Made by a program: the position numbers and the translations under genes
Notes under the pieces: model-generated
What the model saw: only the letters and a program-made list of their open reading frames with translations
Told to the model about the DNA's origin: nothing
Databases searched by the model: none
Assembly (NCBI GenBank): GCA_016929065.1
Contig: JAFGJO010000053.1
Coordinates: 1 to 34,201, forward strand
Length of the DNA stretch: 34,201 nucleotides
Source: Spirochaetales bacterium
Lineage (GTDB): Bacteria > Spirochaetota > Spirochaetia > SZUA-6 > RPPD01
Reading direction: 5' to 3'
In this document: positions 4,379 to 24,105 of the stretch, piece by piece
How positions within the stretch are numbered: position 1 is the first letter of the stretch
Layout of the letters: the number at the start of each line of letters is the position of its first letter

Positions 4379-6748
4379 CTATAAACCGGTTTTTGTATTC
4401 GTCAGGATACCTGCAATTGTTTTAAGAATATCTTTTTTCCGAAATGGTTTTGTAACAGCACCCATAAATCCGAACCGCTTATAGTCCGACAATACTTCAT
4501 TGCTTGAATAACCGCTCGATACAACCGCCTTGACATCAGGATCGATATTTTTTAATTCCTGAATAGTCTTGATTCCCCCTATTCCGCCGGCAATGGTCAA
4601 ATCGAGAATCACCATGTCGAAAGGCCTTTTTTCATCCATTGCACGCCGGTATTCTTCCAGTGCATCTTCACCTCTTTTTACCGGACAAACAGCCACCCCG
4701 GCAGATTTCAGGATGGCACAGAGCATATCAAGAACCATCTCTTCATCATCCATGACCAGAATTCGTCCGAAAATGACCGGCAATGACTCTTCCTCTTCCT
4801 CAACAGGTACTGGTCTTGCATCGGTTGCCGGCAGCCAAAAACTGAAATGTGTTCCGACCCCGGGAGGTGATGATACAACGATATGCCCGCCGTGTTTTTT
4901 TATTATGGAATATACCGTGGCCAGGCCAAGGCCCTGCCCTTCTTTTTTCGTTGTAAAAAACGGATCAAAGATCCGCGTACGGATTTCCTCGGGAATTCCT
5001 GCCCCCTCATCCTGAATTGAAATCTCCAAGTATCTGCCGGGGTCAAGAAGAATTTCATTCTCGCCGGACAATTCCCTGTTGGCGACCTGGATGACAACCC
5101 GCCCTCCCTCAGGCATGGCCTGACGTGCGTTAATGAGCAGATTACTGAATACCTGCGTCAGCTGTCCGGCATCACCGATAACCAGCCATAAATTATCAGT
5201 ATACACAACCTCACTGCGAATACTTGAGCCGGAAAAAGAAAGGTCCAGAGCATCCGTAATAATTCCCTCCAGGGGAACAATTTCCTTTACCGGCATACCG
5301 CCCCGGGAAAATGTCAACAACTGCCGCGTAAGGTCCTTTGCCCGGTGGTACGCTGATAATGCCTTTTCCAGGTTTTTGCCAACTTCCGCTGCGCTGTCGC
5401 ATGATTCATAGGCCATCTCAACGTAGCCGAATATTGCTCCAAGCAAATTATTGAAATCATGGGCAATTCCACCTGCCAGGATTCCCAGGGATTCCAGTTT
5501 CTGTGCTTTCTGCAGTTCTTCCTCTGTCTTTTTATGCCGTGTTTCATCTGTATAAACCGTGACGATTTCTCCGGAGGGAAGCTTGAATACATAATTGTCC
5601 CGCCATCCATGGATAAATGTATCCTGGTAAAATGAAACAGGAAAATGTTCCGGCTCGCCTGTCTTGAATACCCGTTCGAATACATCAAGCAGGCCGAACG
5701 TTCTTACACCCGGAAAAACCTGTTCAACCGGTTTCCCGGTTATTGCTTCACGTTTTACTTTCTCGATATTCTCTGCAGCGCTGTTGAAATCTTTTATAAC
5801 ATATACATTGTCATCGGTCCGCTCATATATCGCAACACCTGCCGGTATATTTTCAACGACCTGCCGGAATTTATTTTCGCTCAGAAACAACGCCTGCTGA
5901 TTCTGTGATAATTGCCGGACTGTTGCCTGCAGCTGCTGTTCATTCGCAGACAATTGCTGATTTGCAGCCCGCAGCTGCTGCTCCGATGCCATTAATTGCT
6001 GGTTGCCTGCACGGAGCTGCTGCTCGTTCGCAGCAAGCTGCTGATTCCCCGCACCCAGTTGACTGTTTGCGGCAGAGAGTTCTCCAATTAAACGCTGCCG
6101 CTCCCCAATATACCGGTATAAAACAATCCCGATTACAATAATAAACAATACCGTCAGAATTTTTAAGGTATTGTCAATCACACTGACGAAATCGATATAT
6201 TCCTTCATTTTGCGCTCTAGCTGAACATCTACAAAGGAAAGCGAGTTGCGCAGTTGTCCGAACTGCAGGTCGTATTCCTGGTCAATACGAGTCCCCGCCT
6301 GCCCCTGCCGCAGCAGCCGCGCCCGTCGTACGGTCAGATCATTCAATCCCTGAAAGTTGACAATACTGAACCCGAATTCGGCAAGTATTTCCTCTCTGCC
6401 GCCGAACAGGAACACCAGCGGTTCCTCCCTCAGTTTTTTTTCCACCGTTAAAAGCAGCTGGTAATGCTCTTCATTTTTTTTATTGACAATGTTTAAATCA
6501 ATACTGATATCGCCGGTCAAATATTCTTCAAACCAGAGATGCGATTCAGTAAGATTATTTTTAATTTCATCCATTGAATTCTGTATGGGCAGGAAAAAGC
6601 CGGAAATCTGCGAACTGATGAACAAGGTCGTTACCGTACTCAGCACTACTATCAGAAAAAAGACAAAAAGAAGAATCAGTATCCATACACGCCGCGGGCC
6701 CGAGAAAAGGAAACGGGCTGATATTAATTTCGGGGAAACAGACGGCAT
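4379..6748 (-). CDS. membrane hybrid histidine kinase with PAS, HisKA, HATPase and receiver domains
   Basis: This is a 789-residue sensor kinase (numbering from ATG 6748). TM1 is ~21-44, the extracytoplasmic sensor ~45-194 and TM2 ~195-213. A Gln-rich heptad helix follows at ~225-285, then a PAS domain at ~292-405. The HisKA motif GGIAHDFNN has the phospho-acceptor His430. HATPase boxes are NLLINARQAM (536-545), DEGAGIPEE (580), FDPFFTTK (594) and GQGLGLATV (604). A C-terminal receiver domain (~661-784) has phospho-acceptor Asp716 and Lys767. The helix carries six consecutive A-x-x-Q-Q-x-x-A heptads (DNA 5924-6052). ATG 6748, with GGGGGAG upstream, is preferred over an in-frame GTG at 6781. 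Either start overlaps the CheD-like gene upstream, which implies translational coupling. No DNA-binding response regulator is nearby, so the output is unknown. Confidence 0.92.
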   Translation of the reverse strand: MPSVSPKLISARFLFSGPRRVWILILLFVFFLIVVLSTVTTLFISSQISGFFLPIQNSMDEIKNNLTESHLWFEEYLTGDISIDLNIVNKKNEEHYQLLLTVEKKLREEPLVFLFGGREEILAEFGFSIVNFQGLNDLTVRRARLLRQGQAGTRIDQEYDLQFGQLRNSLSFVDVQLERKMKEYIDFVSVIDNTLKILTVLFIIVIGIVLYRYIGERQRLIGELSAANSQLGAGNQQLAANEQQLRAGNQQLMASEQQLRAANQQLSANEQQLQATVRQLSQNQQALFLSENKFRQVVENIPAGVAIYERTDDNVYVIKDFNSAAENIEKVKREAITGKPVEQVFPGVRTFGLLDVFERVFKTGEPEHFPVSFYQDTFIHGWRDNYVFKLPSGEIVTVYTDETRHKKTEEELQKAQKLESLGILAGGIAHDFNNLLGAIFGYVEMAYESCDSAAEVGKNLEKALSAYHRAKDLTRQLLTFSRGGMPVKEIVPLEGIITDALDLSFSGSSIRSEVVYTDNLWLVIGDAGQLTQVFSNLLINARQAMPEGGRVVIQVANRELSGENEILLDPGRYLEISIQDEGAGIPEEIRTRIFDPFFTTKKEGQGLGLATVYSIIKKHGGHIVVSSPPGVGTHFSFWLPATDARPVPVEEEEESLPVIFGRILVMDDEEMVLDMLCAILKSAGVAVCPVKRGEDALEEYRRAMDEKRPFDMVILDLTIAGGIGGIKTIQELKNIDPDVKAVVSSGYSSNEVLSDYKRFGFMGAVTKPFRKKDILKTIAGILTNTKTGL

Positions 6749-7221
6749 TCCTTTTCTTCTCCCCCGGTACAATATACGCACCCGCCTGCAACATCAAGCC
6801 GCACGCTTCTGCGCTCGTACCCGCCCAGCGATAGAGCTGCAACAGCAAGCTTTTTTTCTTCAAGAAAGTCAAAAATACTTGTTATGTTATTCATACAAAT
6901 GGTATCATCATCCCGCCGCAGTACATTCCCGCCCCCCGCAAGGCACAACACACATGATTGCCCATGGGCTCCCTGTTTTTCCAACAGTGAGAAAAGCCTG
7001 CTGATACCATCATGCGCATAACGTAACGGTTCCTGCGATCCCTTCGGCGATCTGCCGGGAAGCATGATGTGTGCCAGCCCTCCGATGCATGCATCCCTGC
7101 AGAAAGCAGCAACAACCACGCAGGAACCAATTCCCCGGGAGACGAGCTGGCATGGCTGCGTTGTGACAAAAACTTCACCGGTAAACACATTAATAATTTG
7201 ATCAATCGCGATAATGTTCAT
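6724..7221 (-). CDS. cheD: CheD-like receptor glutamine deamidase
   Basis: This is a 165-residue protein of the CheD family. CheD converts specific glutamines of chemoreceptors to glutamate and, in Bacillus, binds CheC. The signature IGSCV (Cys34) followed by IGGLAHIMLPG (His51) gives the catalytic Cys-His pair with the correct 17-residue spacing. The third member, a Thr six residues before Cys in Thermotoga CheD, is Ser28 here. The C-terminal GGxxRRxxRLD segment resembles the family's SLGGxxGR end. ATG 7221 is used; TTG 7227 is an alternative. No other chemotaxis gene is in the window, and the gene overlaps the histidine kinase gene by about 25 nt, so its likely partner is that kinase rather than an MCP. 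Family assignment is good; the target is inferred. Confidence 0.82.
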   Translation of the reverse strand: MNIIAIDQIINVFTGEVFVTTQPCQLVSRGIGSCVVVAAFCRDACIGGLAHIMLPGRSPKGSQEPLRYAHDGISRLFSLLEKQGAHGQSCVLCLAGGGNVLRRDDDTICMNNITSIFDFLEEKKLAVAALSLGGYERRSVRLDVAGGCVYCTGGEEKECRLFPRN

Positions 7222-7336
7222 GGCCAAATTCAGTTTAATCCATTTTTACCGGAAATGGCAAAGTATTTTTGGCAGAAAATACAACAGAGAATTGCGTGCC
7301 GGCTATTTCAGCGGTTGCTCACTATATAATAATCGT

Positions 7337-8497
7337 TTATTTCATCCGTTCCAGAAACTTTACCACATCCGCTTTTGTGAACACAATCAGGTTCCCGGTT
7401 GTGTCGCCGCGCATTGACTTTGCCGCGATATCTTCAAACCGGTCGAAAGGAATCCCCAGATCAGAAAGTTTCTGCGGGAGACCGAGTTGTTTATAAAACT
7501 TGCTTGTTTGTTCTATTCCCCTTTTCGCGGCAGTCATGTCATCGGGCTCCTGTATGTTCCAGATATTCCGGGCATAGCGGGCAAACCGGTGCATTGTTTT
7601 TTCGCTTAATGCTGCATCCATCCAGTACGGAATAATAAGTGCAAGGCCCTCTCCATGGGATATATCGTACAGGGCGCTCAAGGCATGCTCGAGACTGTGC
7701 AAAAGCCCGTCAAAAAGCTTGCCACGTGAAGAAACCCCGTTCAAAGCCATACTGCCTGCCCAGAGGAGATTTGCCCTTGCTTCATAATTTGCTGGTTCAT
7801 CTATCGCCTGTTTTCCATATTTAATGACTGTTCTCAGCACCCCTTCACAGAACTCATCCTGCAGGGTGGCACCCGGAACCTCAATAAAATAATACTCAAA
7901 CACGTGGGACATGATATCGGCGATGCCGGCCGCGGTTGGACGTTTTGGAACCGTCACAGTATATGCAGGGTCCATGATCGCGAACTTTGGAATAAGCATG
8001 TCATGACCGAACCCCTTTTTCTCCTCGGTATCGGGATTACTGATCACAGAGTTTTTGTTCATTTCACTGGCGGTCGCCGCAAGCGTAATGACCGCGCCCA
8101 CGGGAAGCGCCTTCTTCGGCTCGGCCTTCTTTGCCCAGATATCCCAGGGATCACCGTCATATTTTGAAGCTGCGGCGATCGCCTTGGAGCAATCAATGAC
8201 ACTGCCGCCGCCGACACCGAGCACAATCTGGATATTGTTTTCTTTACAGACCCGGGCGCCTTCACGGACAGTTGAAATTCGTGGATTGGGGTCAACACCC
8301 GAAAGTTCGATAAAAAAAATATCGCTCTTTTTCAGCTGAGAGACAACATCATTATAGATGCCGTTTTTTTTGATACTGTCCTTGCCGTATACCAGAAGCA
8401 CCCGGTTTCCGAATTCTCTGATGCAACCCGGGAGTTTTTCGACCTGATTTTTTCCAAAATATACTTTGGTGGGGATATAGAAATAGAAATTGTTCAT
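7337..8497 (-). CDS. iron-containing alcohol dehydrogenase, BdhA/YqhD type
   Basis: This 386-residue cytoplasmic NAD(P)H-dependent dehydrogenase probably reduces aldehydes to alcohols (butanal/butanol type) in fermentation or aldehyde detoxification. The nucleotide-binding VGGGSVIDCSK loop is at ~95-105. Metal ligands are Asp194, His198, His267 and His281, at the same positions as in E. coli YqhD. The stretches TKVYFGK, ELSGVDPNPR and TAAGIADIMSHVFEYY are closest to clostridial butanol dehydrogenase A as I recall it. The ORF extends 31 codons further upstream. ATG 8497 is chosen because AGGAG precedes it and because it matches the family N-terminus (MNNFYFYIPT). An extended -10 promoter lies upstream. 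Alcohol specificity and cofactor preference cannot be read from sequence. Confidence 0.92.
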   Translation of the reverse strand: MNNFYFYIPTKVYFGKNQVEKLPGCIREFGNRVLLVYGKDSIKKNGIYNDVVSQLKKSDIFFIELSGVDPNPRISTVREGARVCKENNIQIVLGVGGGSVIDCSKAIAAASKYDGDPWDIWAKKAEPKKALPVGAVITLAATASEMNKNSVISNPDTEEKKGFGHDMLIPKFAIMDPAYTVTVPKRPTAAGIADIMSHVFEYYFIEVPGATLQDEFCEGVLRTVIKYGKQAIDEPANYEARANLLWAGSMALNGVSSRGKLFDGLLHSLEHALSALYDISHGEGLALIIPYWMDAALSEKTMHRFARYARNIWNIQEPDDMTAAKRGIEQTSKFYKQLGLPQKLSDLGIPFDRFEDIAAKSMRGDTTGNLIVFTKADVVKFLERMK

Positions 8498-8543
8498 GAA
8501 TGCTCCTGAGATGGTGTATGAATAAATATAATGAAAATCAATT

Positions 8544-8552
8544 ATTATACCA
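8544..8552 (-). promoter_or_regulatory. extended -10 promoter element for the alcohol dehydrogenase
   Basis: Read on the minus strand, this is TGGTATAAT: a perfect TATAAT preceded by the TGn extension. No good -35 is seen, as expected for an extended -10 promoter. It would give a leader of about 40 nt to ATG 8497. It also argues against the longer ORF, whose first codons lie upstream of this element. Confidence 0.5.
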
Positions 8553-8674
8553 AGTGAGAAATAGTTTTTTTGGAGAGTTTGCCCCCGCATTCTTAAATAC
8601 CGGAATCATCACTCAAAAAAAGCCACAGTCTATGGATTGAAATTAAAAGGCTCCGAGGGCAATGAAAAGTTTTT

Positions 8675-10141
8675 TTATTTACCGGAAGCGATTACCTCAA
8701 ATATCCCCATCATTCCCTGATCCTCATGCTCCAAAAGATGACAGTGATACATATACTTTCCAAGGTACTCATCAAACTGTACAAGAATACGAAAGGCATC
8801 ACCCGGCCACAATAAAATGGTATCCTTGTACCCGGCAAGCTGTCCGGGAGGCGGCTCGCCATTGACAGCTAACACCAGAAACTGTGTATCATGAATATGA
8901 AAGCTGTGCGGGATATTCATCATTCCCATTCCCCGGGTGTCATTGACAATCTCCCATACTTCCGGTGTATTCACCGGTATATATTCATCAACACGGTTCA
9001 TATCCATTTTTTTATTATTTATCGTAAGAGTACCGGAAACCCCCATACCCATCGACATTGTTGACAAGACAAACCTTCGGGTGTTCATATTCTTTGATTG
9101 CTTAGGAGGAAACAAAGATACAAGAGTCTTTGGTATTGAGGAGCGTGATATTTTCATCTCGCCTGTATCTATTACAAGGGCGGTATATTTATTGCCGGAA
9201 TAGACATCTGCAATCAGATTTTTATTATTTCCCCGCACCTCTTCTTTTAAAATATCCACCAGAATTTCAGCTCTCTCACCGGGGGAGAGTACCAGTTCCT
9301 GCCGTTTAACCGGCTTTCGCAGAAATCCCCCGTCAGACGCGATCTGATAAAACTCAGTCTGATCCTCAAAATAAAACCGCAGGACACTTGAGTTGCTGCC
9401 GTTCAAAAGCCGAAAGCGTGTCAAAGATTCTTTTACCGTAAAAACGGGCTTGATCATACCATTCGTGAGTAGCGCGTTCCCGTAATACCCATGCATAATA
9501 TCAGGCTGAGCTGGACTGTAGGAAAATGTCCCGTCCTTTAAAAAGCGACGCTCCTGTACGATCAGCGGGATATCATTGATCCCGTACTTTTTCGGCAAAG
9601 AAAGTGCCGCAGACGCCTCATCCTCGATAATAACAATTCCCGCAAGCCCGCGGTATACCTGTTCTGCGGTTGTTCCTGCAAAATGGGGATGATACCAGAG
9701 GGTGGCAGCCTGCTGTTTCACGGTAAAATGCGGCAGCCAGGTTTTTCCCGCATCGATGACATGCATGGGAAGCGGGCCGCCGTCCATTTCCGACGGAAGG
9801 CGCATCCCATGCCAGTGCAGGGTTGTTTTCTCTGCAAGTGAATTGTGTACCGCAAAAGAAACCGTCTCACCGGCAGCCATTCTTATGGTCGGGCCAAGAA
9901 AATTGCCGTTATACCCGATCGTTTTTGTCATGCTGCCGGGAATGAATTCACTTTCACCGGATTGTACATTGATGGTGTAATGAGTACCGGCTTCATTCTT
10001 TGAATCCGGCTGCAATAAAGGCGGAATAAACAGGGCTCTGCCCGGTGCCGTATCCGCACCCTTCGCCGGGGAAGTTTCAACACAACCAATAAAAATAAAA
10101 AACACAATAGTCATTGCAAAAAAGCCGGGCAGTATTTTCAT
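8675..10141 (-). CDS. multicopper oxidase lipoprotein (CueO/CotA-like laccase)
   Basis: This is a 488-residue, three-cupredoxin multicopper oxidase. Enzymes of this type oxidise Cu(I), Mn(II), Fe(II) or phenols with reduction of O2 to water. All copper ligands are visible: HWHG (His109, 111), HPHFAG (His151, 153), HSFHIH (His412, 415, 417) and HCHLLEHEDQGMM (His466, Cys467, His468, His472, Met477). The usual Pro of HPxHxH is Ser. The N-terminus is a lipoprotein signal ending FIGC with Cys20, so the enzyme is anchored outside the cytoplasm. ATG 10141 (MKIL) is preferred over ATG 10156 because GGAG sits 9 nt upstream. The Met-rich insert of CueO is not obvious. The substrate is unknown, and no copper regulator or transporter is adjacent. 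Confidence 0.93.
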   Translation of the reverse strand: MKILPGFFAMTIVFFIFIGCVETSPAKGADTAPGRALFIPPLLQPDSKNEAGTHYTINVQSGESEFIPGSMTKTIGYNGNFLGPTIRMAAGETVSFAVHNSLAEKTTLHWHGMRLPSEMDGGPLPMHVIDAGKTWLPHFTVKQQAATLWYHPHFAGTTAEQVYRGLAGIVIIEDEASAALSLPKKYGINDIPLIVQERRFLKDGTFSYSPAQPDIMHGYYGNALLTNGMIKPVFTVKESLTRFRLLNGSNSSVLRFYFEDQTEFYQIASDGGFLRKPVKRQELVLSPGERAEILVDILKEEVRGNNKNLIADVYSGNKYTALVIDTGEMKISRSSIPKTLVSLFPPKQSKNMNTRRFVLSTMSMGMGVSGTLTINNKKMDMNRVDEYIPVNTPEVWEIVNDTRGMGMMNIPHSFHIHDTQFLVLAVNGEPPPGQLAGYKDTILLWPGDAFRILVQFDEYLGKYMYHCHLLEHEDQGMMGIFEVIASGK

Positions 10142-10234
10142 ATCCTCAAACTCCATTCTTTATTTTTAACGTACTCATAACCGTATAGATATGGCAATAC
10201 AATTATAGAGGACACGGGAATCAGGCATTTTTTC

Positions 10235-12466: not shown

Positions 12467-14572
12467 TTATTCTTCCGGGAGATTGTTGAGTATTTCGGTT
12501 ACCGCCGATTCTACATCACTCTCCAATACGGTCAATCCCTTTGGACTGCAGTAATAACTTACGATTACAAAAAACGGCTCATGTTTGAAAATATAGAAGC
12601 GGCGCGACTGGCTGGATACGACTGCCGATTCTCGCCAGACAGTCTTGTCTCCAAGCGTGACAAACTCACTTGTATAGGAAAGACCGGGATCAGGAGTAAA
12701 AATCTGGTCAATCAGCGGAAGTGCCGATGCATTTGCAATAAACTCCTCTATTGTATAATCCCAGGATTCGTCATTACAGGACACTATCCCCGCATAAACA
12801 AGTTCATGCGTCGGGCCGACAATCGCTCCCGAGTATTCTGCATATGCCACATAATTTATAACTGTATCATACTCAAATGTTGCATCGGTGTAACTAAAGG
12901 AGCTGTAGTACCCCCCGAATGTATTACTGAACACTGACCGGATAACAGAGGTCAATTCTGTTTTTGCAGATTCATCGGTTATATTTCCGGCAATATAGTC
13001 AGAGTCCCCGCCGAGCGCCCTGTTCTGCTGTATGATTTCATAGTTCGCACTGCCCATGCGGACATCCATGTTATTGTAGGTGACAACCAAAACGGAAACA
13101 GGGAGCAGATCTGCAAGGCCGGTGATATCCGACAGGGTGTTGTACCGTGCCACCAGATAGTACAGGCTGGCCATCCCCTCCAGCCCGTCAAGGCTGGTCA
13201 ATACATTTCCAGAGACGTCAAGAAACGCCAGCGACGGAAGATTGCCAAAAGAATCCAGATTTGTAATGGCATTGTCATACAGATGCAGTTCCTGGAGCGA
13301 GGCATGATCAAACGCAGCTATTTCTGTGATCGCATTCGAATCAAGCTGAAGCAGCTGCAAGTGAACCAGAGAAGAAAGATTGATAAGTGTCGTGATCCGG
13401 TTATGCTGGCAAAACACCTCTTCGATTCCCTGAATGGCAAGGAGCCATTCAAGCCCAGGCAGATCGTTGTTGTACACAAGCATTCTGCGTAATGCAGGAC
13501 AGTTTTGGAAACCGGTCACCGATGCGATTTGGTTATCGGCAACATCAACCGTCTGCAGCACCGGGCAATTGTTAAACCCGCTGACACCGGTAATGCCGCA
13601 CTCTCTGATTTCGATGGAAACAAGAGACGGAAAGTCAGAAAGCAAGTCAAGTCCGGCAAGTGTACAGTAGTATAGTTTCAGATTTCTTAAAGAACCATGA
13701 GCAGCTAGCGGAGTAAGGTCTATCGTACCACAGCCGGAAAGCGACAATGACTGGAGTGAAACGCATTGTGCAATCGAAGTACAATCGTCCAGAGGGGATT
13801 CGAACAGCTCCAGGGACTGCAAGCCTGGCATGGCGGGAAGAACACTGAAATCGGCAAAAGTGCAGTACTCTATTTTCAAGAATGCCGTTGGAGTAGATGC
13901 CAATGCGCCCACATCCGCAACCGTCGTCGATTCAAGAATAAAACTGGAAAGTGCAGGAAAATCAAGGAGGACCTCAAGAGAATCATAGCTTCCTCCAACA
14001 AACCCCAATGTTTTTATATTGATGCAGTATTCAATCCCGGTAAAATCATCAATTTGCGGAAGCAAAAGCGAGGTAATCGGCTCAAGATCTTCTGCGTAGA
14101 ATTTATCATCGACGCTTTTTCCAGGTACGCCAAGCGAGATGGCCAACCGCAATGCATCATCCGGAATCGAAATAAAATTGTCGATAAAGCCGGAATCGAT
14201 GCCGGTCAATTCTGTGGAGGTATCGGTTTTTACTGCTTCAATCTGATAATAATAAGAGTCGTGAAAGTTGAGGACCTGTACAGCATCAACGAACATGAGA
14301 TCGTCCCAGGCGGTATCTGCTGTTCGGGCAATTTCCGTATACTCGCCATTCTCTGCTGTCGCACGAAAGACGATATATTCCGCAGCATTCAGGAATTCAT
14401 CCCATTCGACCACAATACGATCGTTGTACTCACCATCGCTGGCAGAAATTTCCGCCTCCGGGCCTGTGATTCCCCCGGCACCCGTTTTCCCGGACAATTC
14501 GCACCCTGTTACAAAAACAGCAGAACATGCCAAAAAAATAACAAAAATTCCCTTCAAAACCCGGTTTTTCAT
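12467..14572 (-). CDS. leucine-rich-repeat lipoprotein with FN3-like domain
   Basis: This is a 701-residue predicted lipoprotein (lipobox VTGC, Cys24). Residues ~35-125 look like a fibronectin type III domain ('ISASDGEYNDRIVVEWDEF' start, 'YYYQIEAV' strand). Residues ~140-515 hold a run of ~22-residue SDS22/internalin-like repeats of the form L-x-x-L-x-L-x-x-N-x-I. The C-terminal ~180 residues are unrecognised and Tyr/Ser-rich. Surface LRR lipoproteins usually bind proteins or host/neighbour surfaces; the ligand here is unknown. ATG 14572 is chosen over an upstream extension of 32 codons because AAGGAG lies 7 nt upstream and a typical lipoprotein signal begins there. A strong 13-bp inverted repeat lies 37 bp upstream. 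Confidence 0.85.
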   Translation of the reverse strand: MKNRVLKGIFVIFLACSAVFVTGCELSGKTGAGGITGPEAEISASDGEYNDRIVVEWDEFLNAAEYIVFRATAENGEYTEIARTADTAWDDLMFVDAVQVLNFHDSYYYQIEAVKTDTSTELTGIDSGFIDNFISIPDDALRLAISLGVPGKSVDDKFYAEDLEPITSLLLPQIDDFTGIEYCINIKTLGFVGGSYDSLEVLLDFPALSSFILESTTVADVGALASTPTAFLKIEYCTFADFSVLPAMPGLQSLELFESPLDDCTSIAQCVSLQSLSLSGCGTIDLTPLAAHGSLRNLKLYYCTLAGLDLLSDFPSLVSIEIRECGITGVSGFNNCPVLQTVDVADNQIASVTGFQNCPALRRMLVYNNDLPGLEWLLAIQGIEEVFCQHNRITTLINLSSLVHLQLLQLDSNAITEIAAFDHASLQELHLYDNAITNLDSFGNLPSLAFLDVSGNVLTSLDGLEGMASLYYLVARYNTLSDITGLADLLPVSVLVVTYNNMDVRMGSANYEIIQQNRALGGDSDYIAGNITDESAKTELTSVIRSVFSNTFGGYYSSFSYTDATFEYDTVINYVAYAEYSGAIVGPTHELVYAGIVSCNDESWDYTIEEFIANASALPLIDQIFTPDPGLSYTSEFVTLGDKTVWRESAVVSSQSRRFYIFKHEPFFVIVSYYCSPKGLTVLESDVESAVTEILNNLPEE

Positions 14573-14608
14573 ATCATTGCTCCTTTGATTAAAATTCTCC
14601 ATTATTTC

Positions 14609-14641
14609 CTTATGTTGGTTTCCATTATAAACTAACATAAG
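14609..14641. promoter_or_regulatory. 13-bp inverted repeat upstream of the LRR lipoprotein
   Basis: Arms CTTATGTTGGTTT and AAACTAACATAAG are reverse complements except for one mismatch, with a 7-nt spacer. The element lies 37-69 bp upstream of ATG 14572, in the expected 5'-leader or core-promoter zone. It could be a repressor operator or, in RNA, a stable leader hairpin. No known binding motif is assigned. Confidence 0.55.
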
Positions 14642-14658
14642 TGTATCACCAAAAACCA

Positions 14659-14679
14659 GGCCTTTCAATTAAGAAGGCC
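14659..14679. promoter_or_regulatory. small GGCCTT/AAGGCC inverted repeat
   Basis: GGCCTT and AAGGCC arms flank a 9-nt spacer, 18 bp from the larger inverted repeat. It may be part of the same control region. It lacks a U-tract, so a terminator is unlikely. Confidence 0.35.
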
Positions 14680-18069: not shown

Positions 18070-21000
18070 ATGAAAAAATCAACGATCCTTATTTTTACCG
18101 TAATTTTGATATCCATTTTTTTTTCATCGTGTAATAATATCGATATTGCAGGCGAATCCGATGCAGCGGCTTCACTTGCAAAGGCGGATATACTGTTTGA
18201 TAAAGGACAGTTTCAGGAAGCGCTCACCCTGTATGAGCAGGTGCATGAAACCGCGATGGACTCCTTTATAAAAACGAAAGCCTTTATACGGATGTGCGAG
18301 TCCAATGCACATTTGTTTCGGTATGGAAAGGCTGCCGACCTCCTGCTTCATACCCCGCTCCCCGAACAGCCGGCTGACAAGGCGAGGGTATTATTTGTAA
18401 AAACAGGACTGCTGGACATTTTCTCTCTTCAATATTCAAATATCCTTCAGGCCGAAAAAATACAGGGTGAAAACGGATCCCAAAACGTATTTCGTCTGTC
18501 AAAAACACAGCTCAAAGAAAAAATAATTGATACATTCGATACACTCGCCGGCATGAAAGATATTCTGCTTTCCATGAAGCTTGAAGCACAGTCATACTAT
18601 TTTTATGTCAAGAATATTGATTTTGCAGAATTCCCGACAATGTATGATTTTTATGTGTTCAACAAAACAAATTTCCTTACCCGGGGAGAAACCGTCTCGG
18701 CCAATGACATACGATTTCTCCTGAAAGATGATTTCACTGCCCCGTCAGATCCTTCCCCGATTCTGCAGGCAGCTGATCTGATGGAATCGGTGTCGCGGCT
18801 CCACCAGAAGAATCATCCTGCAGCAGGTGAACGCTGGAAAATCCGGCGGCTTGCGCTGATGTTTTCCCTGACCTGGGATAAGGATGCCGGCAGGCTGCAT
18901 ATCGATACACGGAAGTCGGCAATTGATATTTATTTAAAGTGGATGGAGACATTCACGTCCGACAGTGCAAAGGCACACGCCGGATATTCAGCGGCAAACA
19001 TGTACAATCAGGCAGGGTTGTATGTCGATGCCAGGACTCTCTGCGAAAAAATAACCGCAATGTTCCCCGGCACCTTTGCCGCGAATAATGCTGCAGTCCT
19101 CCGGCAGCAGATCATCAATCCCTCTCTGTCGGTTTCGGTAAAAAATATGACCCCGAAAATCCAGAAAACCATCACGGTCTACTCACGAAATTTGAAAACT
19201 GTTTATTTTCAGGCATACAGACTGCCTCTCGAAATACTCGGCAAGATTGAAAAAGATCCGTCTCTTCTTGAAGGGCTCCATTACGCATCACAGGATAATC
19301 CGCTTCTTAAAAACATAATGGGTAAAAAACCTGACTTTTCCTGGCAAGTGGAAACCGGCGACAAGGGAGATCATGCATATCTGAATCAGCTGTATGCCCC
19401 GCCGGCTCTGTCCGAGGGAATATACATTGTACTGGCATGCAGCAATGATTCATTCACGGAAGGAGAGACACTGCTTTCGAGAGTGCTCCTGAATGTCAGC
19501 TCGATCACCTTTGTCGCTACATCCGGGATCACCACAAAAGCAAACGACGCGTATTTTTCGATGCTCGATAACAACGGACCGCACAAGGTAAGCGATTCGG
19601 TTATCCGCTATTATGTTTTTGATGCACATTCCGGAAAACCGGTCCCCAAAACCGATATATTCAGTACATGGTATGCCAATTATGAAAATAAACAGTATAA
19701 AACCCTTTCCACCAATACAACCGGAACAGCAGCATTCAACGCAGAGGTACAGCTTGAGTATTATACATACAATTATTTTTCCATATTCCCCCTGGTAAAA
19801 AAGGGATTATCATACTCCTATCCAAATAACCAGGAATATATTGGATTTTCAATGCCGCATCCGGTGGAGATTTTCAGTCAGACCGATCGCCCCATTTACC
19901 GCCCGGGGGATGCAGTCCAGATAAAACTTACTGCTCTTCGCCGCATGCCTGACGGGTATAAAACCCTGAAAGGCCCGCAGACTATTCAATTCAATATTTC
20001 TGACCCGAACGGCAACCAGCTTTTTTCCAAATCATTGCCGCTGAACGATACGGGCAGTACAAGCACAGAGTTTGAAATTCCCCGCGGACGTCTTTTGGGA
20101 CAATACTCTTTCAATGCAGACTATGCATACGGCATTTTTACCGGTAATGCAGGCGGCTCGTTTATGGTAGAAGAATACAAGCGGCCGGAATTTGAAGTCA
20201 CCCTTAAGGATCCGAAGGTACAGTTTCAATTTGACAAACCGGCCGAGATTTCGGGAACGGTCTCCTATTATTTCGGCGGCGCAGTTCAGAATGCCCCGGT
20301 TCATTACACAGTCAAAAAGAGTACCTATATCCCGTGGTATTTCCGGTCCTGGATGTTTGACTATAATGCCGACAGCGGTGAAGAAATCGCATCCGGCGAT
20401 ACGGTGACCAATGACCAGGGGAATTATACTGTCAGTTTTGTCCCGAAAAAAGAACACATTACCCTGCCCGGATGGCTCCAGACAGGCATGGTTCCCGAAA
20501 TTGCGAACTATACCGTCACGATTGAAGCCCGTGATGAAGGCGGCCGTACTATCCAGACAACCGGTGCGTATAAAGTCGGCAAACAGGGATTCTATTTTCT
20601 GATCGAACCGGATAAAGGATTTTTTATTGCAGGGGAAAAGGCGGGATTTTCGCTGAAAAAACTTACGGTCAATGATGTTCCATTAGAAGGGACCGCCGGG
20701 GTGAGCGTGTACTCACTGAAAAAGCCTGTCCTGAAAACCTGGCAGGATTTGGGCATGCCGCAGTATGAGCGGGGCGACATGTACGAATCGCTTCCCGGCA
20801 TTGATTTCCAGCTGAAGGATGCGGAAAACGATAAACTTGTATTTCAACATACTGCAAATTTCGATCCAGACGGCAAGTCATCCATCAGCATTCCTTCATT
20901 AGATTTCGGAGCATACCGTATCATCGTAACTTCAAAAGATTCGGGCGGCGAACCGGTAATTCAGCAAAAAACAGTTATTGTTGCTCCCGGTACGGACAAT

Positions 21001-24000
21001 GCCCTGCCGCTCAACTGCACGTCAGTCACCGAAGTGGAAAAAGATACATATGCTGTCGGGGAAACCGCACAGTTGTTGATCGGTTCCGGACATGTTGCCG
21101 GCACCTATGTTGTCGAACTCTGGGCCGGAAAGCAGTTTATCAAAAACATGTTTATCGACAATGCAAAACCCATTCAGCAAATATCAGTTCCCGTCACCAA
21201 AGAAATGAAAGGCGGATTCAGCGTCCGATGGTTTGGGGTTCATGATACCATTGTGTATCACGGAACAGTGAACATAGCAGTTCCGTGGTCTGAAAAACAG
21301 CTTGCAATAGAACTCTCCCCGTTCCAGAAAACTCTTGCTCCCGGTGAAAAAACCGAATGGGGCATTCAGGTAAAAAACAACAACGGAATAATGCAGGATG
21401 CAGAAGTGCTCATGCTGATGTATGACCGCTCGCTTGAGTATTATAATACATCAGGCAACATCGGGTTTACCTCGTTATACCTTCCGCGCCCCCTTCCGGA
21501 AACCGCATCATCGTCACTACGCGAACCATGGTTTTACTCTGTTGCGGTAAAACAAGGCGCCTTGTACGACCAGCTGTACAACCAGCGTATCACTACAGAA
21601 CCGCAACCCGGCATATTTGCCCTGCAAACGCATGTCAATTACCGCTATTTGGACGGTGATGTCCGCTTTTCAAGAAAGGAGGATGATTTTGCCCAGCCCT
21701 CAAGTCCTTTGGGTGTTACTGATATGGCAGCAGAGACAACTGCCGCAGATCTCAAGTCCGGAGAATTCAAGGGTGACGAGCCCCCGGCGTACAAGGACCT
21801 TTCGGGCGGCAGTAATGCACAGGGCGATTCAATTCAGGCAAGAAAGGCATTCGCTGATACTGCCTTCTTTCTGCCGCACGTTCAAACAAAAAACGGCGCG
21901 GGGAGCTTTTCTTTTACCGCACCCGAACAGCTCACCAGCTGGAAGATCATGGCGATTGCGCTCACTGCTGACGCTGCATACGGGATGATTGAAGAGGAAG
22001 CAGTCACCAAAAAAGATCTGATGGTGCGGCTCGACCTGCCCCGTTTTTTCCGTGAAAAAGACAAAGGGACGATTACTGTCATGGTACATAATGAATCCGA
22101 AAAGCGCCTCACCGGTTCGGTCATCATTGATGTCCGCGAGGAAGGTGAGTCCATCATAAAAAAGATAAACCTGTTCGGGCCGCAGAAATCATTCTCGATT
22201 GAACCTCATACACTCACCAGCATTGACTGGCCGCTTGATGTACCAGCCGGCATGACCAGCTATACATTCCGTGCCTCGGCAACAGCCGGGACACTCACCG
22301 ATGCTGAAGAGCGTGCTATCCCAATCCTCCCCTCGCGCGAGCGGCTCATCGAATCTGCTTTCAAGGTGCTCAAGGGGAGCGGCACCCATACCGTAGCAAT
22401 CAGCATGAAAGAGGATCCCACCCGGTTAAGCGAACAGGCGGTCCTGCAGATCGATCCGCAGCTGACCTTGAATATTTTAAACACCATTCCCTTTCTGATC
22501 GACTATCCTTACTCCTGCACGGAACAGACACTCAACCGCTATGTACCGCTGGCGATCGTCAATGCACTGTATAATGAATTCCCCGAAGTAAAGGAACAGG
22601 TTTCCAAAATACCAAAACGCGATACGGTTACCCCGCCATGGGAAGAAGATGACCCGCAGCGGCTGATCACCCTGCAGGAGACACCGTGGGGATGGGAATC
22701 AAAAGGACGTCCGACAATATTCCCCGTCATCGATTTGCTGAATCCGCAGATTGTAAAGACCTACGGGGAAACAACCTTCGCGCGCCTCAAGTCGCTGCAG
22801 CTTTCTTCCGGCGGATTTCCGTGGATGCCGGGCGGACGGGCAAATCTGTACATGACACTCTACGTCCTTACAGGGCTGGCAGAAGCGAAAAAATACAATG
22901 TGACGCTGCCTGCTGACATGATCAACCAGGCACTTGCCTATATCAACAGCGAGATTCCGCAAAATTACAAACCGGACAAATACAGTGTCGCAATCGTATC
23001 ATACGCCGCATACGTCGTGACCCGCTATGCAGCAAAAGACTATTCCAATGCAGGCGCAAGCCATGAGCTGGTTAAAAAATGGCTTTCGTTTCTGGAAGAA
23101 CATATTTATGCACTCACCCCCTTTGGCAAGGCATACCTCGCCGCAACATACCTGGAATTGGGCAATACTGTTCGTGGCGAAGAAGTGCTCGCAATGGCTC
23201 TTGACGGGTCTCAGGTGGATCCGGTTGCCGGTGTCTTTTGGACTCCGGAAGAGTATTCGTGGGTATGGTATTCCGACACTGTTGAAAAACACGCATTCTT
23301 TTTAAAGCTGCTGCAGCAGTACAAGCCCGATGACGAGCGGATTGACGGCATGGTCCAGTGGCTGCTATTCAACCGGACGGGCAATGTGTGGAAATCCACC
23401 AAGGCCTCGGCAGCAGCGATATTTGCACTTCTTGACTACCTGAAAGCAGGCGGCGCCTTGTTTGCCGATGAATCATATTCTTTTGACTGGGGAAATGAAA
23501 AACAGACACTCAATGTCAAAGGAACCGATTTTGTCGGGGAACCGTTCCGGCTCATTGAAACCGGGTCCGGCATCACCGCTGAATCCCTGTCTGTCCCGAT
23601 AGAAAAAAAGGGAAAAGGCACGAGTTTCGCAAGCCTGACGTATACTTATACGACCGATCAAATCCCCGAAGCCTCCAGCCCCGGGCTCATCGAAATGACC
23701 CGTATATTCTATATTCGGGTCAAAGAAAACAATGAATACGTGCTCAAGCCCGTAAAAAGCGGCGATACGGTAAAGGTGGGCGACCAAATCGAGGTGCAGC
23801 TGAAAATCAACACGAAAAGCCAGTTTGAATACATGCATATAAAAGACCCCAAGCCCGCGGGATTCGAAGCCGAGACACTCACCAGCGGATGGAAATATCA
23901 GCCCCTATGGTTTTACGAGGAACCGAGGGATTCTACCACCAATTTCTTTTTTGACTGGCTCCCGCACGGCGAGTATGTTTTAAAGTACCGCCTGCGGCCG

Positions 24001-24105
24001 ACGAAACCCGGTGAATACCGCGTGGGCGCGGCAATCCTGCAGTCAATGTACGCACCGCAGCTCACTGCACACAGTGCAGGATTTGTAATAACGGTGGAAA
24101 AGTAA
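18070..24105 (+). CDS. bacterial alpha-2-macroglobulin lipoprotein with thioester
   Basis: This 2011-residue giant envelope lipoprotein has signal 1-20 and lipobox SSC with Cys21. A TPR-like helical segment (~35-65) is followed by MG domains, including the MG2 signature SQTDRPIYRPGD (~603-614) and VEEYKRPEFEV (~697). The A2M core is at ~1255-1300 (FFLPHVQTKNGAGSFSF...LTSWKIMAIALT). The thioester-containing helical domain has PYSCTEQTL, with thioester Cys1483 and the Gln of CTEQ intact. The C-terminal MG10-like domain (~1870-2011) has PKPAGFE and YRLRPTKPGEY. Bacterial A2Ms trap proteases covalently when a bait region is cut, and are often paired with PBP1C; no pbpC is here. AGGGAG precedes the ATG by ~10 nt. 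A TATAAT at 18032-18037 may be the -10. Confidence 0.95.
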   Translation: MKKSTILIFTVILISIFFSSCNNIDIAGESDAAASLAKADILFDKGQFQEALTLYEQVHETAMDSFIKTKAFIRMCESNAHLFRYGKAADLLLHTPLPEQPADKARVLFVKTGLLDIFSLQYSNILQAEKIQGENGSQNVFRLSKTQLKEKIIDTFDTLAGMKDILLSMKLEAQSYYFYVKNIDFAEFPTMYDFYVFNKTNFLTRGETVSANDIRFLLKDDFTAPSDPSPILQAADLMESVSRLHQKNHPAAGERWKIRRLALMFSLTWDKDAGRLHIDTRKSAIDIYLKWMETFTSDSAKAHAGYSAANMYNQAGLYVDARTLCEKITAMFPGTFAANNAAVLRQQIINPSLSVSVKNMTPKIQKTITVYSRNLKTVYFQAYRLPLEILGKIEKDPSLLEGLHYASQDNPLLKNIMGKKPDFSWQVETGDKGDHAYLNQLYAPPALSEGIYIVLACSNDSFTEGETLLSRVLLNVSSITFVATSGITTKANDAYFSMLDNNGPHKVSDSVIRYYVFDAHSGKPVPKTDIFSTWYANYENKQYKTLSTNTTGTAAFNAEVQLEYYTYNYFSIFPLVKKGLSYSYPNNQEYIGFSMPHPVEIFSQTDRPIYRPGDAVQIKLTALRRMPDGYKTLKGPQTIQFNISDPNGNQLFSKSLPLNDTGSTSTEFEIPRGRLLGQYSFNADYAYGIFTGNAGGSFMVEEYKRPEFEVTLKDPKVQFQFDKPAEISGTVSYYFGGAVQNAPVHYTVKKSTYIPWYFRSWMFDYNADSGEEIASGDTVTNDQGNYTVSFVPKKEHITLPGWLQTGMVPEIANYTVTIEARDEGGRTIQTTGAYKVGKQGFYFLIEPDKGFFIAGEKAGFSLKKLTVNDVPLEGTAGVSVYSLKKPVLKTWQDLGMPQYERGDMYESLPGIDFQLKDAENDKLVFQHTANFDPDGKSSISIPSLDFGAYRIIVTSKDSGGEPVIQQKTVIVAPGTDNALPLNCTSVTEVEKDTYAVGETAQLLIGSGHVAGTYVVELWAGKQFIKNMFIDNAKPIQQISVPVTKEMKGGFSVRWFGVHDTIVYHGTVNIAVPWSEKQLAIELSPFQKTLAPGEKTEWGIQVKNNNGIMQDAEVLMLMYDRSLEYYNTSGNIGFTSLYLPRPLPETASSSLREPWFYSVAVKQGALYDQLYNQRITTEPQPGIFALQTHVNYRYLDGDVRFSRKEDDFAQPSSPLGVTDMAAETTAADLKSGEFKGDEPPAYKDLSGGSNAQGDSIQARKAFADTAFFLPHVQTKNGAGSFSFTAPEQLTSWKIMAIALTADAAYGMIEEEAVTKKDLMVRLDLPRFFREKDKGTITVMVHNESEKRLTGSVIIDVREEGESIIKKINLFGPQKSFSIEPHTLTSIDWPLDVPAGMTSYTFRASATAGTLTDAEERAIPILPSRERLIESAFKVLKGSGTHTVAISMKEDPTRLSEQAVLQIDPQLTLNILNTIPFLIDYPYSCTEQTLNRYVPLAIVNALYNEFPEVKEQVSKIPKRDTVTPPWEEDDPQRLITLQETPWGWESKGRPTIFPVIDLLNPQIVKTYGETTFARLKSLQLSSGGFPWMPGGRANLYMTLYVLTGLAEAKKYNVTLPADMINQALAYINSEIPQNYKPDKYSVAIVSYAAYVVTRYAAKDYSNAGASHELVKKWLSFLEEHIYALTPFGKAYLAATYLELGNTVRGEEVLAMALDGSQVDPVAGVFWTPEEYSWVWYSDTVEKHAFFLKLLQQYKPDDERIDGMVQWLLFNRTGNVWKSTKASAAAIFALLDYLKAGGALFADESYSFDWGNEKQTLNVKGTDFVGEPFRLIETGSGITAESLSVPIEKKGKGTSFASLTYTYTTDQIPEASSPGLIEMTRIFYIRVKENNEYVLKPVKSGDTVKVGDQIEVQLKINTKSQFEYMHIKDPKPAGFEAETLTSGWKYQPLWFYEEPRDSTTNFFFDWLPHGEYVLKYRLRPTKPGEYRVGAAILQSMYAPQLTAHSAGFVITVEK

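Follow-up and report, generated by a model that had tools for sequence, protein, structure and literature searches.

CheD deamidates glutamines in the coiled coils of chemoreceptors, and CheD/CheR sites follow the pattern [A/S]-x-x-[Q/E]-[Q/E]-x-x-[A/S]. Work on the protein so far has dealt with its role in chemotaxis. In Bacillus subtilis, residue M101 of CheD is needed for deamidation of McpA, a Met-Phe pair contacts CheC, and chemotaxis depends more on binding by CheD than on its catalysis (PMC3513319). The closest precedent for the gene pair described here is found in B. cereus, where the hybrid kinase RsbK is methylated on its signalling helix by RsbM, and it shows that modification of such a helix can control a sensor kinase (PMC4574943). 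In a search of the open literature, we found no report of a CheD-kinase module or of a CheD counterpart of RsbK/RsbM.

The locus of interest lies in a stretch of 34,201 nucleotides from a Spirochaetales bacterium, which we refer to as the window. Its minus strand carries, in order, genes for an Fe-alcohol dehydrogenase, a CheD-family protein and a hybrid sensor histidine kinase. The cheD gene spans 6724..7227 from a TTG start at 7227, with the ATG at 7221 the likelier start, and the kinase gene spans 4379..6748 from an ATG at 6748 (the alternative GTG at 6781 would add 11 residues). A sequence-only reading of this DNA had placed cheD directly upstream of the kinase gene with an overlap of about 25 nt and no CheR or CheB gene nearby. 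Indeed, given the ATG start, the 3′ end of cheD at 6724 overlaps the kinase start by exactly 25 nt, and no CheR or CheB gene adjoins the pair in the window. Like RsbK and RsbM, the pair would unite a hybrid kinase with a dedicated enzyme for its signalling helix in one operon, although the modification is proposed here and known for RsbK (PMC4574943). The two systems differ in that RsbM is a methyltransferase, and neither a CheD nor a QQ array is mentioned for RsbK/RsbM in the accessible part of that report (PMC4574943). An RsbK/RsbM-type system encodes its methyltransferase with the kinase, and the neighbor of the window kinase is instead a CheD with no adjacent CheR.

The iron alcohol dehydrogenase gene (7337-8590) is directly upstream of cheD, and a multicopper oxidase gene (8675-10156, minus strand) is located near the pair. 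Farther away are genes for a leucine-rich-repeat protein of 733 aa (12467-14668, minus strand), whose internalin-like NCBIfam matches are far under cut-off, and for a bacterial alpha-2-macroglobulin of 2011 aa with A2M, MG2, bait-region and bMG10 domains (18070-24105, plus strand).

The window protein is a CheD-family member by Pfam score, fold and catalytic residues. It scores 56.2 bits against PF03975 (gathering cut-off 25), and its best score against the NCBIfam chemoreceptor-deamidase equivalogs is 72 bits versus 240, below their cut-offs of 223 or more. Its AlphaFold model (pLDDT 94.8) matches Thermotoga maritima CheD (2f9z_C) with an E value of 4.4e-15 and TM scores of 0.84/0.91, and more weakly matches other amidohydrolases of the CheD-type fold. 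The active-site Cys and His recognized in the sequence-only reading align with this structure. The predicted nucleophile Cys36 (codon 7120..7122, minus strand) corresponds to T. maritima Cys27 and lies in a GSC motif, and catalytic His53 (codon 7069..7071, minus strand) corresponds to His44 and lies in an AHIMLP motif. The third T. maritima site residue, a Thr, is Ser30 in the window protein. In its fold, Cys-His dyad, and GSC and AHxMLP motifs, the protein resembles the CheDs of both T. maritima and B. subtilis.

The partner of this protein has domain scores over cut-off for HisKA (29.8 bits), HATPase_c (89.3 bits) and REC (60.8 bits), as is expected of a hybrid histidine kinase. All of its parts are encoded on the minus strand. 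A membrane sensor part comprising TM1, a helical extracytoplasmic domain and TM2 (6098..6694) is helical in the structural model and is common to the kinases of five other genomes (G627, G554, G723, G439, G440). It is followed by the glutamine array (5924..6052) and a PAS-like domain (5546..5890), which matches PF13188 just under cut-off (E 0.00098) and has the corresponding fold in the model. The remainder consists of the HisKA dimerisation/phosphoacceptor domain (PF00512, 5300..5479), the HATPase_c catalytic domain (PF02518, 4823..5176) and the C-terminal receiver domain (PF00072, 4415..4762). In the kinase model, built with seven sequences (pLDDT 74), residues 164-291 make up a single unbroken helix that runs from TM2 through the array.

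Within this helix after TM2 are six consecutive AxxQQxxA heptads in register (AGNQQLAA, ANEQQLRA, AGNQQLMA, ASEQQLRA, AANQQLSA and ANEQQLQA). The sequence-only reading had put their Gln pairs at residues 236/237 to 271/272, a numbering that is exact for the ATG start. The array resembles known chemoreceptor targets of CheD in that its QQ pairs are flanked by small residues in heptads, and it resembles the methylation helices of MCPs in carrying [AS]xx[EQ][EQ]xx[AS] sites in heptad register. MCPs differ in having few sites, mostly EE, and an MCP signalling domain that works with CheA rather than a kinase core of their own. Among 100,000 shuffles of the helix segment, the longest in-register run was three, and a run of six never appeared. 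The silent third positions of the window heptads have a mean nucleotide identity of 0.58, which is near saturation, and on this sequence evidence the array is old and maintained rather than a product of recent DNA slippage. Because the heptads in the silent-site comparison were chosen by motif, the constancy of QQ is judged instead from 348 heptads. Their consensus is A-x-[N/E]-Q-Q-L-x; the two pair sites are Q in 95 and 97% of cases, and the starting residue is A in 94%. The shuffles, the saturated silent sites and the rarity of the pattern rule out a chance or low-complexity origin.

The rarity of the array became evident in searches for the double heptad AxxQQLxAxxQQLxA that took no account of CheD. 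These blind surveys are samples, covering about 1,160 genomes in four taxonomic groups, and the strict pattern misses degenerate arrays. In the 387-genome sample of the window's phylum, the window kinase alone has the double heptad. Within the order, represented by 26 genomes, a sister pattern picks out just the window kinase and the kinase of G018, whose two genomes are also the two that have the array-linked CheD clade (chance 1/325). In the G437 phylum (246 genomes), CheD is directly upstream in both new array genomes, and in the G439 phylum (132 genomes) it is adjacent in four of four. The G435 class (397 genomes) was searched with a pattern that accepted E as well as Q at the pair positions, and yielded 17 new QQ-array genomes, 16 with an adjacent CheD. 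This CheD gene is upstream on the same strand in 14 cases and convergent downstream in two (G896, G1086). Isochorismatase-family genes (L347:1811-2455 and L350:7180-7836) lie upstream of both array kinases with a convergent CheD. Altogether, 22 of 23 new array genomes have an adjacent CheD gene; they are related within groups and do not represent 22 independent events, and the groups span several phyla.

The sequence-only reading had asked whether similar kinases are common without any CheD, and such kinases prove to be the exception. G1181 is the one genome of the 23 in which no array kinase has an adjacent CheD, and second array kinases without one occur in G914, G1133 and G1068. In G1133, in-frame stops interrupt the kinase that is next to CheD. 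Whole-genome searches of six array/CheD genomes found the array in the CheD-adjacent kinase only. In G440, the array kinase gene is split inside the array between the end of L283 (contig C45) and the start of L284 (C63), and short-read assemblies may hide further members in this manner. Viral contigs gave 26 pattern matches, almost all of them two heptads in unrelated proteins and none with CheD, and so two heptads alone mean little. The E-allowed pattern also gave isolated matches in unrelated frames in 13 genomes, with CheD in none of the 12 genomes whose loci were examined.

Searches that began from CheD gave the same picture, and the adjacency that the sequence-only reading proposed to survey is kept across several phyla in both directions. 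The nearest order-level relative, in G018 (42% identity), is directly upstream of an array kinase. A scan of GTDB genome contigs found relatives in records named Sedimentisphaerales, Aminicenantes, Nitrospirae, Zixibacteria and Bacteroidales. All six of the nearest relatives with readable flanks, from several phyla, adjoin an array kinase; the GTDB-scan loci doing so are L055, L056, L057, L059 and L060, and the contig-edge loci L058 and L061 were left out of the count. No array was found in the flanks of the next-ranked CheD matches (L062-L074), and a tblastn search of plasmids returned only distant CheDs of about 30% identity. Genes beyond the pair are unconserved; the exception is a LuxR-type response regulator gene close to some of the HisKA_3 kinases.

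Array-linked CheDs also form a group of their own. All 31 fall in one clade versus 75 other CheDs (SH-aLRT 98, single label change) in a tree made by a quick method with SH-aLRT support and no bootstrap. The residues Cys36, His53 and Ser35 never vary, with the Cys and His present in 30/30 array-linked CheDs, and the position of the T. maritima Thr is Ser in 22/30, Thr in 1/30 and Ala or Val in 7/30. Unlike chemoreceptor CheDs, these proteins have clade-specific residues that include N101, L103 and R139, have Val/Ile-Leu in place of the CheC-contacting Met-Phe pair, and have a histidine kinase as their partner. Because B. subtilis M101 aligns with Val/Ile, their binding surface differs from that of B. 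subtilis CheD, and the replaced pair points to another binding partner. The kinases themselves vary in their cores (HisKA, HisKA_2 or HisKA_3), in their sensor parts (CHASE, 4HB_MCP with HAMP, receiver, or none) and in array length, from few to about 30 heptads. For example, the CheDs of G820 and G1107 are close relatives, yet the first is next to a HisKA_3 kinase and the second to a HisKA_2 kinase. Since sensor and core types swap, the array and CheD are the constant parts of the module.

The distribution of chemotaxis proteins bears on what this CheD acts upon. No MCP signalling domain was found in four draft genomes of unknown completeness that have array-linked CheD (G435, G436, G439, G441), which is suggestive, within the limits of draft genomes, that chemoreceptors are not the general substrate of these proteins. 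The window genome has 19 MCP matches, whose site motif is the same and mostly EE, and two further CheDs encoded in ordinary che clusters, the first of which includes CheR, CheB and an MCP and the second CheY and CheX. The sequence-only reading had proposed that the change might be one-way or might rely on a distant CheR. The latter is present in the window genome, which has four CheR matches away from the pair, and in seven other genomes, but CheR was not found in three draft genomes with the pair (G435, G436, G439). Thus, within draft-genome limits, methylation is not obligatory there. A related arrangement exists in CheB-CheR-PAS fusions with an EE heptad array (NEELxSTNEELQ) that fits the methylation-site pattern, at L362:227-3187 minus (G437) and L363:49-2361 plus (G018). 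These have the same heptad grammar next to PAS domains, and differ in that the enzymes are fused in cis, EE is already encoded and CheD is lacking. In these few examples, EE arrays accompany methylation enzymes and QQ arrays accompany CheD.

From the gene pairing, array conservation, clade specificity, catalytic dyad and CheD fold, we consider it likely that CheD and the kinase form a dedicated module in which CheD binds and deamidates the glutamine array and thereby sets the state of the kinase. The CheD-clade protein would bind the parallel coiled coil between sensor and kinase core and turn glutamines in the repeated QQ pairs into glutamate, each chain offering up to twelve candidate sites in its six heptads. 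In the likely register, with Leu at d and Asn/Glu at a, the QQ pairs would be exposed, at positions b and c. Their extra negative charge after deamidation might alter coiled-coil packing and shift the kinase/phosphatase balance, as the amidation state does in chemoreceptors. Where CheR is present, the new glutamates might also become methylated; where it is not, the change would probably be one-way and reset by new synthesis. More tentatively, and with somewhat less than even confidence, we speculate that irreversible, graded deamidation of a tandem array serves as a rheostat or molecular memory without chemoreceptors or a methyltransferase, which would make CheD chemistry independent of chemotaxis.

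Several observations count against deamidation as the function of the pair, namely Ala or Val at the T. maritima Thr site in 7/30 proteins, the change of M101 to Val/Ile, and array kinases without an adjacent CheD. So does the finding that the binding of B. subtilis CheD outweighs its catalysis for chemotaxis (PMC3513319). The main rival takes up this last point and holds that CheD regulates stoichiometrically by gripping the QQ helix and that its catalysis is incidental. A B. subtilis mutant with normal deamidase activity and weak binding is null-like (PMC3513319), and glutamines that stay 95-97% encoded as Q are what a binding motif would need. However, an invariant Cys36 and His53 would be unexpected if catalysis were dispensable, and the QQ pairs fit the deamidation-site pattern, so we regard binding alone as unlikely.

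We also think it improbable that the system performs fully reversible, receptor-style adaptation, in which glutamates exposed by CheD are methylated and demethylated by chromosomal CheR and CheB. This proposal is a stronger form of the deamidation module and is compatible with it, and both the CheR genes of the window and seven other genomes and the methylation of the RsbK helix by RsbM (PMC4574943) speak in its favor, against which stand the three pair genomes in which CheR was not found and the lack of an adjacent CheR or CheB. A far less probable account makes the array a generic coiled-coil spacer born of repeat expansion, beside a CheD that serves chemoreceptors. Heptad linkers are common in kinases, and the variable array length is as a spacer would allow. 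Yet the array is rare outside the company of CheD, it has kept QQ despite saturation at its silent sites, four genomes lack detected chemoreceptors, and the CheDs belong to a separate clade.

The pairing also offers a rule to annotators, since a CheD neighbor can be predicted from an AxxQQLx array, and such an array from this CheD. If the deamidation module is real, it would provide a function for a recognisable class of coiled-coil linkers and a two-gene system for direct tests of graded charge on a signalling helix. It would also mean that covalent adaptation of the kind used by receptors tunes ordinary sensor kinases as well, including those in genomes without a detected chemoreceptor.
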